Shown here piece by piece: positions 2,076 through 6,172 of a stretch of 35,619 bases of DNA. This stretch comes from Croceibacterium sp. (lineage in GTDB: Bacteria > Pseudomonadota > Alphaproteobacteria > Sphingomonadales > Sphingomonadaceae), in the NCBI GenBank assembly GCA_025450635.1, contig JANWHA010000019.1, positions 1 to 35,619 of the forward strand, in the 5' to 3' direction. Under the pieces are notes generated by a model that ran no database searches, had not been told where the DNA came from, and saw nothing but the letters and a program-made list of their open reading frames with translations. Each line of letters opens with the position of its first letter. The first letter of the stretch is position 1. The translations under genes and the position numbers were made by a program.

Positions 2076-3401
2076 CTAGTCTCCCAGGCTGAGCTTCGCG
2101 AACACCGTGTAGCCCATCGGCGACTTGCCGTAGGCCGCGTCGAGCGCATCCGGCTTGAGGAAGGCCGCGGCCGTTCCGCCGAGCGCCAGGTTCGCCGGCC
2201 CGAGCGGCAGGCGATAGGCGTAGCCGGCCTGGAGCTTGGTCACGCGGAAGGCGACATCGTGCAGCGGATCGGCCGGGTTCGGAAAGAGCTCGTCGTTGTC
2301 GACGTTCTCGATCCGCCCGAACAGCGTGTGGCGCCGCGTCAGGTCCCAGTTCACCTCGCCGAGCCAGGCGCTGAAGTTGCGGCCGGGAACGCGGTCTTTG
2401 ACCGAAAACGCCGCCATCGCCGAAAGGCCGCTGCCGTTGTTGTACTGCGCCGAAATCGTGGTGCGGTTTTCATCCTCGGTCGGATGCGCGGCCTCGGGCG
2501 CGTGGATGTGGCCATGGCTCGCCTGCAGCAGCCAGGCAGGCGATGGGGCGAAGGTGGCGCGGACGCTCCAGCTGTCGAGCCTCGGCGTCTCGATGTTCCA
2601 GCGAAACTCGTCGGGCTCCTGGCCGCGGAAGGCGCTCGCTTCGAATTGCCATTTCGGTGCCGAAACGCCGGCGGTGACCACGCCGTAACTGATGTGGGTC
2701 GAATCGAACCAGTGATGGGTAATCGGCGCCTCCGGGTTATACTTCGCGCTGGCGCGGTGCATGAACGCGCTCGGCCCGAGCGCCGGCTCGGCAACGGGGC
2801 CGCCATAGAGGAACGCGGTGGTCTTGTTCGCGATGTCGAGATCGAGCCGGCCCGACAGCTCCATGAACAGATCGTGCGGATGCTGGCGGTCGACCAGCGG
2901 CTGCCCTTTGGCCTCCTCGCCGGTGGCGTACAGCAGCGGATAGCCGTCGTGCTTCATCGCCGGTTCGAGGCTCATCATCGAGTTCAGGGTGACTTTGCCT
3001 CCGGTGAACGGCGCGGTCAGCATCGCCATGCCCATCGACTGGGCGTAAACTTTGTCGTCGCCGCGCGGGCCGGTCTGGTCGGTGTAGATCGGCCAGACGT
3101 AACCGCTCAGCATCAGCATCGTCTGCCCACCGAGACCGAGCATCGTGCCGCCCATCTTCTCGTTCGGCGGCAAGCGCGACGTGCCCGAGCCCTGGCCGGA
3201 CATATCCATGCCGGACATGTCCATCCCCTTCATGCCTTTCATGTCCATGCCGGACATGTTCATGCCCTTCATAGATCCCTGATCGGGCGAGGAATCATCG
3301 GCCGGTGGGGCAGCGGCCTGGTCCGGCGCGGCGTCTTGCGCCAGGGCCGGGGCAGGGAGCAGCGCCAGCGCCGCAGCGCCGGCCAGAAGCAACTTGGTCA
3401 C
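2076..3401 (-). CDS. Methionine-rich exported protein, putative outer-membrane metal-locus protein
   Basis: A 441-aa protein. Residues 1-21 (MTKLLLAGAAALALLPAPALA) form a signal peptide. Residues about 43-69 are a Met-rich repeat built from MKGMNMSGMDMKGM-like units, of the kind that binds Cu(I)/Ag(I) through thioethers. The rest contains MMSLEP, DRQHPHDLFMEL, ALGPSAFMHR and HHWFDSTHISYGVV, followed by alternating aromatic/polar segments ending in FAKLSLGD, which look like beta strands. I recall this body as an uncharacterised family often found in heavy-metal loci. It ends downstream of the glutaredoxin/MauE gene (15-bp gap) and should be co-transcribed from the MerR-type promoter. A role in periplasmic or outer-membrane copper binding is inferred. 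Confidence 0.85.
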   Translation of the reverse strand: MTKLLLAGAAALALLPAPALAQDAAPDQAAAPPADDSSPDQGSMKGMNMSGMDMKGMKGMDMSGMDMSGQGSGTSRLPPNEKMGGTMLGLGGQTMLMLSGYVWPIYTDQTGPRGDDKVYAQSMGMAMLTAPFTGGKVTLNSMMSLEPAMKHDGYPLLYATGEEAKGQPLVDRQHPHDLFMELSGRLDLDIANKTTAFLYGGPVAEPALGPSAFMHRASAKYNPEAPITHHWFDSTHISYGVVTAGVSAPKWQFEASAFRGQEPDEFRWNIETPRLDSWSVRATFAPSPAWLLQASHGHIHAPEAAHPTEDENRTTISAQYNNGSGLSAMAAFSVKDRVPGRNFSAWLGEVNWDLTRRHTLFGRIENVDNDELFPNPADPLHDVAFRVTKLQAGYAYRLPLGPANLALGGTAAAFLKPDALDAAYGKSPMGYTVFAKLSLGD

Positions 3402-3416
3402 TTCACGAGCGCTCCC

Positions 3417-4166
3417 TCAGGGGTTGAACAGCATCCAGATCGCCATTCCGATCATGCACAGGTTCTCGGTCAGCGAGACGAAGCCGAGCGGCACGTTGCT
3501 CGATCCGCCGACGCACGCGCATTTGATCGCGCGCTTCTGCACGTAAACCGCGTAATAGACGCTTACCGCGCCGACCGTCCCGATAAAGAGCGCCACGGGA
3601 ATCGACAGCCAGTTGAGCGCGTGCGCCGCCATCAGCACGCCGGCGGCGGCTTCGAGGAACGGATAGGCGTAGGCATAAGGCACCCAGCGCCGGGCGAGCA
3701 GGTCGTAGCCGACGAACATCGTCGAGAACTTCTCGACGTCCTGCAGCTTGAGCATCGCCAGGATGGCCATCGTGAAGCTGACGAACCATTCGCCGGCGCG
3801 CACGGTGAACGGCGAGCCGAATGCATGGAAGCTCACCGCCATCGCCAGCAGGGCGGCGATCGCGAACACAGCGATCACCGGCGCGTAGCTGGTCGCGTCA
3901 GCCGCGCGCAGCGGCTTCCCGAGGAACTTGCGCAGCTCGGTATAGCCGCCGATGCGCTTGCCTTCGACGAAGCTTTGCGGAGTTGTCCTGACCTTGTGCT
4001 CGCGCTTGAACGCGTCGGTCTCCTCGCGCGTCGTCAGCCAACGGTCGTCGACCAGGTAGCCGTTTTTCTCCAGCAGCCAGCGGGCTTTCACGCCATAGGG
4101 ACAGACGTGCTCGGGCATCACCATGCGATAAAGGCGGGCGGTCTTGGGGATGTTGCCGGTGTTCAT
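3417..4166 (-). CDS. Glutaredoxin-like domain fused to MauE/DoxX-like membrane protein
   Basis: A 249-aa protein, starting at MNTGNIPKT (ATG at 4166). The track's extra 13 codons run into the MerR promoter. Residues about 7-80 are glutaredoxin-like, but the redox site reads CPYG rather than CPYC, so only the first Cys remains. TTPQSF carries the conserved cis-Pro, and GGYTEL follows. Residues about 90-249 hold four hydrophobic helices and the motif CACVGGSSNVPLGFVSLTEN, typical of MauE-like proteins. The predicted role is membrane thiol chemistry or metal handling in the cytoplasm and inner membrane. It is the first gene of the minus-strand pair controlled by the divergent MerR regulator. Confidence 0.85.
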   Translation of the reverse strand: MNTGNIPKTARLYRMVMPEHVCPYGVKARWLLEKNGYLVDDRWLTTREETDAFKREHKVRTTPQSFVEGKRIGGYTELRKFLGKPLRAADATSYAPVIAVFAIAALLAMAVSFHAFGSPFTVRAGEWFVSFTMAILAMLKLQDVEKFSTMFVGYDLLARRWVPYAYAYPFLEAAAGVLMAAHALNWLSIPVALFIGTVGAVSVYYAVYVQKRAIKCACVGGSSNVPLGFVSLTENLCMIGMAIWMLFNP

Positions 4167-4181
4167 GTCCGTTCCTATAGC
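4153..4181 (+). promoter_or_regulatory. Candidate promoter of the merR-type gene
   Basis: TTGCCG (4153-4158) and TATAGC (4176-4181) are 17 bases apart. This would start transcription just inside the dyad, so the bound regulator could repress its own gene. The match is only moderate. Confidence 0.4.
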
Positions 4182-4205
4182 CCCCGTACCACAGTACGGA
4201 GTCAA
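4175..4205 (-). promoter_or_regulatory. MerR-type promoter/operator with 19-bp spacer
   Basis: Read on the minus strand: TTGACT (4205-4200), 19 bases, then CTATAG (4180-4175). The spacer holds the perfect dyad CCGTAC-N4-GTACGG (4184-4199). A long 19-20 bp spacer with a central dyad is the hallmark of promoters untwisted by MerR-family activators. The half sites and the TTGACT element match mercury mer operators as I remember them. Confidence 0.85.
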
Positions 4206-4207
4206 GC

Positions 4208-4648
4208 ATGAAAGCGATGCGCATTTCCGATTTGGCGCGCGCGGGAGGCGTCGGGGGAGAAACGGTGCGGTTCTACCAGCGCAAGGGGCTGCTCGCCGTT
4301 CCGCGGGGAGACGCCCCCGGCGGGCGGCATTACGACGAGGAGGACTTGCGCCGCTTGCGCTATATCAAGCAGGCGCAGAACGCCGGCTTTACTCTCGCCG
4401 AGATCGCGCAACTGATCGAGCTGTCGCATACCGACGACCGCCCGGCCGCCCGCGCCATGGCCCGCGAGCGCATCGCCGCGCTCGACGACCGGATCGCCGT
4501 GCTGCAGGCGGCGCGGCAAGCGCTGGTCAAGCTCGAGCACGACTGCGTGCAAGGCGGTGACGGGCCATGCCCGATCCTCAACGTGTTCGAGCAGCCGTTT
4601 GTCAGCCGAACGCCGGCTTCAGGTCCTGCCGCTCGACGCGAGGGATGA
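4208..4648 (+). CDS. MerR-family metal-responsive regulator, CueR/HmrR-like
   Basis: A 146-aa regulator. ATG at 4208 is preceded by GGAG. Residues about 4-72 are a MerR winged helix (ISDLARAGGVGGETVRFYQRKGLL, then RRLRYIKQAQNAGFTLAEI). A dimerisation helix follows, then a metal-loop signature C-x7-CPIL (CVQGGDGPCPIL). The seven-residue spacing is that of CueR-like monovalent-metal sensors rather than mercury MerR, and no Cys is visible at the start of the dimerisation helix. It diverges from the glutaredoxin/MauE gene over a mer-like operator, so it probably activates that operon on metal stress. The metal, Cu/Ag/Au or other, is not settled. Its 3' end overlaps the convergent DUF1206 gene by 47 bases. 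Confidence 0.9.
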   Translation: MKAMRISDLARAGGVGGETVRFYQRKGLLAVPRGDAPGGRHYDEEDLRRLRYIKQAQNAGFTLAEIAQLIELSHTDDRPAARAMARERIAALDDRIAVLQAARQALVKLEHDCVQGGDGPCPILNVFEQPFVSRTPASGPAARREG

Positions 4649-5402
4649 TGAGGTATCGGGCGACGATGAGGCTGAACGCACCGAACACCATCAGGCCGAT
4701 GACTACCACGGTGTACAGCAGCCCGCTGGACCGCAGGCTGACGAGCGCTTCGCCGAGGCCCTTGGCGTCGCTCGAGTGGTGCCACCACGCCGCGCGCACC
4801 AGCGACCAGCCGACGATCGCGAACACCACCGCGCGCGCGGCAAAACCGATCCGCCCGAGCGCTTCGACCCACGCCGGGGCGCGGCCGCTCACGCGGTGCA
4901 TGAAATGACCGGTCGCCGCCTGGCGCACCTGCATCGCCGCGGCGACGACGAAGCCCGCGCCGACAACGCCGATTGCCACCTTGCCCATGCTCCAGTCGAG
5001 CGCCGTGTGCACGGTGGCGCGGGTCTGCGATTCCGCTCCCGCGCCGTGCTTCAATCCCAGCGCGAAGCGCAGCGCCGAGTACGCGACGATTGAATAGGCG
5101 ACGGCCGACGGCAGGCTGGCGAGACGGTGAAACAAGCCCCTGGCGTCGCTGCCGCGCTGCTCGATATCGCACACCACGCACAGCAGCCGGAACGCCACGT
5201 ATCCGGCGAGCGCCACCACGAGAACCCCCAGCACGATCCGGCCGAGCGGCATCTTCTGCAGCATGTCGAAGACAGCCTGGTTTCCGGCATTGACCCTGGC
5301 TCGCGTGGCGAGCGCGAGCCAGCCGAGCAGCAGGTAAACGACACCGCGCCCGGCATAACCCGACCGAACGAGCCAACTGAATTGTTCCGGCGCGTCGGGC
5401 AT
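4602..5402 (-). CDS. DUF1206 family integral membrane protein
   Basis: A 266-aa protein. I start it at MPDAPEQF (ATG at 5402), seven bases after AAGGAG, rather than at 5429. It has about six hydrophobic helices in three repeats. RSGYAGRGVVYLLLGWLAL near the N-terminus and GRIGFAARAVVFAIVGWSLV near residue 185 show the repeat, whose R-x-G-(Y/F)-x-(A/G)-R motif marks DUF1206. The function of the family is unknown. Its end runs 47 bases into the 3' end of the merR-type gene in the opposite direction, so the two may affect each other's mRNA. No link to the metal module is evident beyond position. Confidence 0.85.
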   Translation of the reverse strand: MPDAPEQFSWLVRSGYAGRGVVYLLLGWLALATRARVNAGNQAVFDMLQKMPLGRIVLGVLVVALAGYVAFRLLCVVCDIEQRGSDARGLFHRLASLPSAVAYSIVAYSALRFALGLKHGAGAESQTRATVHTALDWSMGKVAIGVVGAGFVVAAAMQVRQAATGHFMHRVSGRAPAWVEALGRIGFAARAVVFAIVGWSLVRAAWWHHSSDAKGLGEALVSLRSSGLLYTVVVIGLMVFGAFSLIVARYLIIPRVERQDLKPAFG

Positions 5403-5452
5403 CCCAACTCCTTGACCTGCGCGCTTCAACGGAGGGGACGCGGAATGGTGCC

Positions 5453-6172
5453 TCAGCGCACGCGCTTCACGAAAAGATGGCCGTTGCGATCCTCGACGCG
5501 GAAGCGTTCGTTCGCTCGGAACAAGTCGGAAAGCCGCTTGAATCCGTGGTTGCGCACGTCGAAGCTGGAGCGGTTGCCGGCGATGTTGCCGACCTCACTG
5601 ATGGAGGCATAACCGTCCCTGTCGCGCTTCGCCGCCTTCCACGCGGCACCCAGCAAATCGTTCAGGTCCTGGTCGATCGGTTCGCTGTCGGGCGCACCCG
5701 CCTCTTCCATCACGTCGTCCTGAGCCGAGGTGCGCATCAGTTGGTCGACATCGATGTATCGGGTGCATGCCGTCCTGAACGCCTCGGGTGCCTTGGCGCC
5801 GCCGAAACCGTAGACGATCAGCCCATCCTGTCGCAACCGGGTGACCAGCGGGGTGAAATCGCTGTCGGAACTCATGATCCCGAAACCATCGACCTTACCG
5901 CCGTAGAGCAGGTCGATGGCGTCGATGGTCATCGCCATGTCGGTGGCGTTCTTGCCCTTGGTGAGGTCGAACTGCTGCATCGGCTGAAGGCCGTAACGGT
6001 GGGTGATCTTGTCCCACTTCGACAATCCCGGCTTGGTCCAATTGCCGTAGGCGCGGCGGACGTTTACCTGGCCGAGTTCGGCCAGCACGGTCAGGACCGC
6101 GTCGATCCCGGCGGGATTGGCATTATCCGCGTCGATCAGCAGGGCGATGTTCTTGAGCGCTTCTTCCGGCAT
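5453..6172 (-). CDS. NYN-domain putative RNase with C-terminal LOTUS/OST-HTH domain
   Basis: A 239-aa protein. Residues about 8-145 are a NYN (PIN-like) nuclease domain. The acidic metal-binding residues are visible in LLIDADN (11-17), KNATDMAMTIDA and MSSDSDFTPLVTRL, so it should be active against RNA. Residues about 165-239 (LGAAWKAAKRDRDGYASISEVG, then a GFKRLSDLF segment) match an OST-HTH/LOTUS RNA-binding domain. A cytoplasmic RNA-processing or RNA-decay role is inferred. Substrate and partners are unknown. The ATG at 6172 has a GGAG only two bases upstream, so the exact start is a little uncertain. The next gene on this strand ends 36 bases upstream of the start. Confidence 0.87.
   Translation of the reverse strand: MPEEALKNIALLIDADNANPAGIDAVLTVLAELGQVNVRRAYGNWTKPGLSKWDKITHRYGLQPMQQFDLTKGKNATDMAMTIDAIDLLYGGKVDGFGIMSSDSDFTPLVTRLRQDGLIVYGFGGAKAPEAFRTACTRYIDVDQLMRTSAQDDVMEEAGAPDSEPIDQDLNDLLGAAWKAAKRDRDGYASISEVGNIAGNRSSFDVRNHGFKRLSDLFRANERFRVEDRNGHLFVKRVR

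Follow-up and report, generated by a model that had tools for sequence, protein, structure and literature searches.

A MerR-controlled glutaredoxin-MauE and porin-like operon of Croceibacterium that looks like a new form of copper/silver resistance

What would a MerR-type regulator, a glutaredoxin fused to a MauE membrane domain and an exported Met-rich protein do together at a locus where no copper pump or oxidase gene lies nearby? The window analyzed here is the whole 35,619-nt stretch of DNA, which represents a complete contig (G000:C19) of a Croceibacterium sp. genome that is 74% complete. The three predicted genes were confirmed, with the regulator gene divergent from the other two, which lie on the minus strand with a spacing of 15 nt.

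2076 to 3401, minus strand: predicted outer-membrane porin-like protein of the DRQHPHD family, 441 aa, GTG start, with an N-terminal signal and a disordered Met-rich tail
2871 to 2891, minus strand: DRQHPHD motif (residues 171-177), invariant in every aligned member
3198 to 3275, minus strand: Met-rich repeat (residues 43-68), no His
3417 to 4166, minus strand: Grx-MauE fusion of the SmGrx3 type, 249 aa, ATG at 4166, with Grx at residues 8-82 (CPYG) and MauE at residues 123-247 (CACVGG)
4174 to 4205, minus strand: MerR-type promoter/operator TTGACT-CCGTACnnnnGTACGG-TATAnn with a 20-bp spacer, conserved across intergenic regions
Operator parts, minus strand: TTGACT at 4205-4200, dyad CCGTACTGTGGTACGG at 4199-4184, and -10 element TATAGG at 4179-4174
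4208 to 4648, plus strand: MerR-family regulator, 146 aa, CX7C, with Cys only at positions 113 and 121

The sequence-only reading had stated that P-type ATPases, multicopper oxidases and RND pumps are absent nearby, and this holds for the whole-contig window, as searches for a Cu P-type ATPase, CopA oxidase, CopB and HME-RND pump gave no match inside it. The other open reading frames of the window were assigned by Pfam scans to housekeeping functions (NtrX/NtrY-type, HflX, MetG, TatD and DacA-like), and since they surround the module, it is probably chromosomal in the source genome; versions of the module are also carried on plasmids. The same three genes occur in the close relatives Altererythrobacter segetis (G003) and Croceibacterium soli (G004), and the genes of the module are kept across dozens of genomes. 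A conserved neighborhood in relatives, whose lack had been set beforehand as the ground for abandoning the idea, was thus found.

Taken by their sequences, the three genes look like MerR-controlled copper/silver resistance in a new form, in which the operon probably serves copper(I)- or silver(I)-induced protection of the envelope. Two neighboring genes were observed as well. The 3' end of the regulator gene overlaps by 47 bp (4602-4648) with that of a gene for a DUF1206 membrane protein (4602-5429, minus strand), and DUF1206 genes recur near the porin gene in eight relatives. A protein with NYN and OST-HTH/LOTUS domains is encoded near the module at 5453-6172, and a similar gene adjoins the regulator in C. 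salegens (L141).

The regulator and its operator

The best NCBIfam matches of the regulator were the mercury MerR model TIGR02051 (92.3 bits, cut-off 150.85) and the CueR model TIGR02044 (83.8 bits, cut-off 147.4), both under the cut-off. In CueR, Cys112 and Cys120 are the Cu(I) ligands, while a third Cys (C82) belongs to the Hg(II) site (PMC9909328, PMC7911910). Alignment with MerR and with CueR of solved structure revealed that the Cys82/117/126 triad of mercury MerR is incomplete in the regulator owing to the lack of Cys82, and in all complete Grx-MauE-paired regulators compared, CX7C was present and the C82 equivalent absent. The regulator has two Cys in CX7C, followed by PI in a loop resembling metal-binding loops, and no third Cys at 77/82, as expected of CueR-like sensors of monovalent metals, but the Ser77 of CueR is replaced by Ala in the phmmer alignment and by Ala or Arg in relatives.

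The MerR-type promoter has its dyad within a 20-bp spacer, in line with the 19-20 bp general for MerR regulators. The operator layout was recovered in 47 of 48 MerR|Grx-MauE intergenic regions, in taxa that range from sphingomonads to Rhizobiaceae, some with few substitutions and with a few genomes contributing two regions. The claim of three genes sharing one MerR-type switch was supported, a single such switch being turned towards both minus-strand genes. A pattern search of 14 genomes mostly returned one site per genome, with two in G142 and none in G001 and G083, and the reversed-pattern control gave zero matches; the source genome contains a single site of this type. Extra operator copies apart from the Grx-MauE promoter were noticed at G142:C16:291120 and L102:194. 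Separately, 16 Grx-MauE loci in the L042-L068 set (e.g. L047, L050 and L055) have neither the divergent MerR gene nor the operator within the stretch examined.

The switch resembles CueR/GolS-type regulators of Cu(I)/Ag(I)/Au(I) in the two Cys of CX7C, the lack of Cys at 77/82 and the overlong promoter spacer. It differs from them in the mer-type TTGACT, the CCGTAC/GTACGG half-sites, the 20-bp spacer, the replaced Ser77 and the sub-cut-off CueR score, and its target is neither copA nor an oxidase gene. Regulators divergent to more distant porins (L036/L041) are near-CueR, scoring 142 and 145 bits against the cut-off of 147.4.

A mercury-responsive system was considered as a rival, in which the regulator would be a genuine mercury MerR and the membrane protein would guard thiols from Hg(II). 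In its favor, TTGACT and the dyad half-sites are the same as in the R100 merR|merT region and thereby in the operator of the Tn21/R100 mer operon, the closest NCBIfam model is mercury MerR (92 bits, and 122 bits for the regulator of S. meliloti), and merAB genes lie near one plasmid Grx-MauE locus (L156). However, the Hg-binding third Cys is missing throughout, the loop is CX7C instead of CX8C, the spacer is 20 bp instead of 19 bp, and mer genes are absent from the window and from the other annotated loci examined, which leaves the mercury explanation very improbable.

Copper or silver is the best-supported ligand, as the sequence-only reading had suggested, given the CX7C loop, the conserved operator, a Cu-ATPase behind the same operator in a sibling species and the copper islands described below. 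That species is C. salegens, where the same regulator and operator stand ahead of a YHS/HMBD Cu-ATPase (TIGR01511, 599 bits, cut-off 397) with the porin gene directly after. From the CX7C loop we infer that Cu(I) or Ag(I) would be bound by C113/C121, and the metal-loaded regulator would then remodel the overlong 20-bp promoter to turn on the divergent operon; the operator was located by comparison, and activation is presumed. The regulator would thus be a dedicated local switch joining a mer-like DNA site to a monovalent-metal loop.

The glutaredoxin-MauE fusion

The MauE domain (PF07291) of the membrane protein scored 51.8 bits, above the cut-off of 27, and the Grx domain 21.5 bits, slightly below the cut-off of 22.9. 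In agreement with the single-Cys glutaredoxin head noted earlier on a membrane protein, C22 of CPYG is the sole Cys of the head, and the MauE half contributes the invariant C216xC218. The other invariant residues are the Met residues M133, M150, M179 and M238/M241/M245, the last three of which are located in the last helix. The AlphaFold model (pLDDT 82) contains the Grx domain and five long helices, and hydropathy alone gave three helices. A fold search against the PDB returned convincing matches to glutaredoxins only (best E 2e-3), with no solved structure found for the MauE half. The positive-inside rule predicts a cytoplasmic location for the charged loops, the CxC loop among them. The proposal of thiol repair in the envelope is unsupported, because the Grx head, which has no signal peptide, and the K/R-flanked CxC loop are both predicted to be cytoplasmic.

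The combination of a CPYG glutaredoxin head with a MauE domain assigns the protein to the type of SmGrx3 (S. meliloti SMa0280), whose deglutathionylation activity is low, whose mutant has no phenotype and whose function is reported as unknown (PMC6315971). The earlier claim of an undescribed system was accordingly narrowed, since this fusion is of a named type, while the DRQHPHD porin family and the module operon were not found in the literature search. Plasmid copies from S. meliloti (L158) are about 66% identical to the window protein and likewise lie opposite a MerR gene, with an operator that is nearly identical; the window differs from SmGrx3 in having the porin gene next in the same operon. 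With the MauE of methylamine utilization the protein has the PF07291 domain in common, but it carries its own glutaredoxin and no mau genes were seen with it.

Relatives of Grx-MauE were detected on 295 plasmid records; within the family, a search at E<=1e-10 found them in 111 of 201 genomes, at full length in 99 of those. Among 121 full-length genes in the family, at least 38 are found no more than 8 kb from CopA/CopB and at least 14 near the porin, with zero overlap between the two groups among the matches listed and a chance expectation of about 1.5%. Grx-MauE occurs within copper islands of Sphingobium, Alteromonas, Pseudosulfitobacter, Phaeobacter and Agrobacterium, and copper-type contexts were recorded at L005, L006, L008, L010, L011 and L149-L152. 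On Sphingobium plasmids, MerR|Grx-MauE is followed by two small genes (one Cys-rich), the porin gene and DUF305; at L006 the DUF305 protein matches CopM under the cut-off, and a P-type ATPase gene and a TolC gene come next. The small CC-rich proteins between Grx-MauE and porin on these plasmids appear metallothionein-like (L006 5235-5429; L010 5255-5479), and a family search with the one from L006 gave no match. In Alteromonas and marine Rhodobacterales (L149, L150 and L151), Grx-MauE comes after DUF305 and beside CueR, Cu-ATPase or CopAB, with its own divergent MerR absent.

No copper genes were nearby in 6 of the 16 plasmid Grx-MauE loci examined (L007, L009, L153, L154, L157 and L158), and several plasmid pairs stand alone. 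Such loci outside metal islands, together with the weak activity of SmGrx3 and the listing of heat shock among its inducing conditions (PMC6315971), would fit an operon that serves general thiol or oxidative stress and lacks a metal ligand, in which Grx-MauE controls disulfides as a membrane-bound glutaredoxin while the two Cys of the regulator sense oxidants. This explanation is regarded as unlikely, as the CX7C-PI loop resembles metal-binding loops, a Cu-ATPase carries the same operator and Grx-MauE is strongly enriched near CopA/CopB.

Under the copper/silver explanation, Grx-MauE would be an inner-membrane protein whose glutaredoxin head faces the cytosol, and it would handle glutathione-bound Cu(I) or copper-oxidized thiols at the membrane via C22 and C216xC218. 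A bolder possibility, put forward with considerable doubt, is that the protein is itself a copper carrier in the membrane instead of an enzyme for thiol repair, passing copper from Cu(I)-glutathione via C22, C216xC218 and the invariant Met residues into the periplasm, where the Met-rich porin would then remove it. If so, it would offer an ATP-independent copper route in genomes without CopA, CopB or a detected Cu-ATPase, such as that of C. soli. The idea that Grx-MauE replaces the Cu-ATPase in general was rejected, since the two are present independently across the family (p about 0.75-1), and the swap in C. salegens is therefore a single case. A literature search found no copper transcriptome naming Grx-MauE. 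The SmGrx3 type, found on hundreds of plasmids with no assigned function, hereby gains a testable role in copper/silver stress.

The porin-like protein and its relation to CopB

The sequence-only reading had described a Met-rich repeat with a conserved DRQHPHD body, and both were recovered, as the 48 residues ahead of GSGTSR contain 10 Met and zero His and DRQHPHD is invariant in the aligned members. The Met cluster is moderately unusual, with 10 Met in 28 aa compared with a mean of 4.8 and a maximum of 11 in 20,000 shuffles of the protein, and was taken as real because relatives also carry tails rich in Met/His and dozens of genomes keep these genes. The tails of relatives contain both Met and His (e.g. 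MDHSQMDH; median 8 Met and 6 His in the scanned region), whereas that of the window protein has Met only. Export was supported by a Sec-type signal ending in ALA-QD, as judged by eye, but the prediction is of an outer-membrane barrel rather than a soluble protein. Its structure model (pLDDT 79.8) contains a barrel matching OmpU, Omp38 and OmpF with query TM of about 0.45-0.55, and residues 1-64 are of very low confidence, as expected of a disordered tail. No Pfam family was above its cut-off, with Porin_4 weak, and a phage search revealed no porin homologues.

By prediction, the protein shares with CopB/PcoB (PF05275) an outer-membrane barrel, a disordered Met-rich N-terminus and copper contexts. 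It differs in its larger OmpU/Omp38/OmpF-like barrel, the invariant DRQHPHD, the lack of a CopA-oxidase partner and its largely exclusive occurrence with CopB. A similar disordered tail is present in PcoB homologues and is critical for PcoB function in Caulobacter, which depends on a minimal set of His (PMC12509749); the tail of the window porin differs in having no His. The candidate explanation of a distant CopB was rejected, as none of 34 porin-family members matched PF05275 at E<=0.1, BLASTP gave 21.9 bits and the profile match was weak (hhalign 50% probability across 116 columns).

Across the family, porin and CopB are anticorrelated (14/36 against 141/166, about 85%; p=5e-8), in a comparison whose genomes are related and thus not independent events and in which G002 was scored negative though left out of the search; with one genome per genus, p was 8e-4. 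The porin is also anticorrelated with CopA. Neither CopA nor CopB was found in the source genome, A. segetis or C. soli, in which HME-RND matches were under the cut-off, and the Cu-ATPase search gave no match in C. soli and one in A. segetis, on another contig. Since the source genome is incomplete, the absence of copper genes from it counts as weak evidence. The idea of a module working by itself is accordingly possible for these three genomes, but elsewhere its parts sit with Cu-ATPases and CopAB.

Many sphingomonad porin loci lie among housekeeping genes, with ychF on one side and mutL/mreB on the other, where the regulator and Grx-MauE are absent, and a full-length Grx-MauE gene is missing upstream at 56 of 80 porin loci. 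The notion that Grx-MauE and porin form an obligate pair was rejected, as their presence across the family is independent (p=0.71). These observations would suit a porin that is a passenger, holding its operon position for historical reasons and serving another purpose such as a nutrient channel. The operator, however, is present at 26 of 80 porin loci and immediately precedes the porin gene in L131 and L111; the porin gene adjoins Cu-ATPase genes in C. salegens, on a Pontibacter plasmid (L011, a related porin) and in G200, where the two are side by side; and the Met/His-rich tails and the anticorrelation with CopA/CopB likewise argue against a passenger, which is considered quite unlikely.

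In the copper/silver explanation, the disordered Met-rich tail would capture periplasmic Cu(I)/Ag(I) and help to discharge it through the pore. On the basis of architecture and mutual exclusion, the protein may fill the role that in most relatives falls to CopB/PcoB, and this outer-membrane family lacking annotation is flagged as a probable CopB stand-in. If this is true, copper-resistance surveys using CopA/CopB/Cus overlook one class of genomes. At G192:C3:62442-63153, in a genome with CopA and CopB, a porin gene broken by in-frame stops lies next to an intact Grx-MauE gene.
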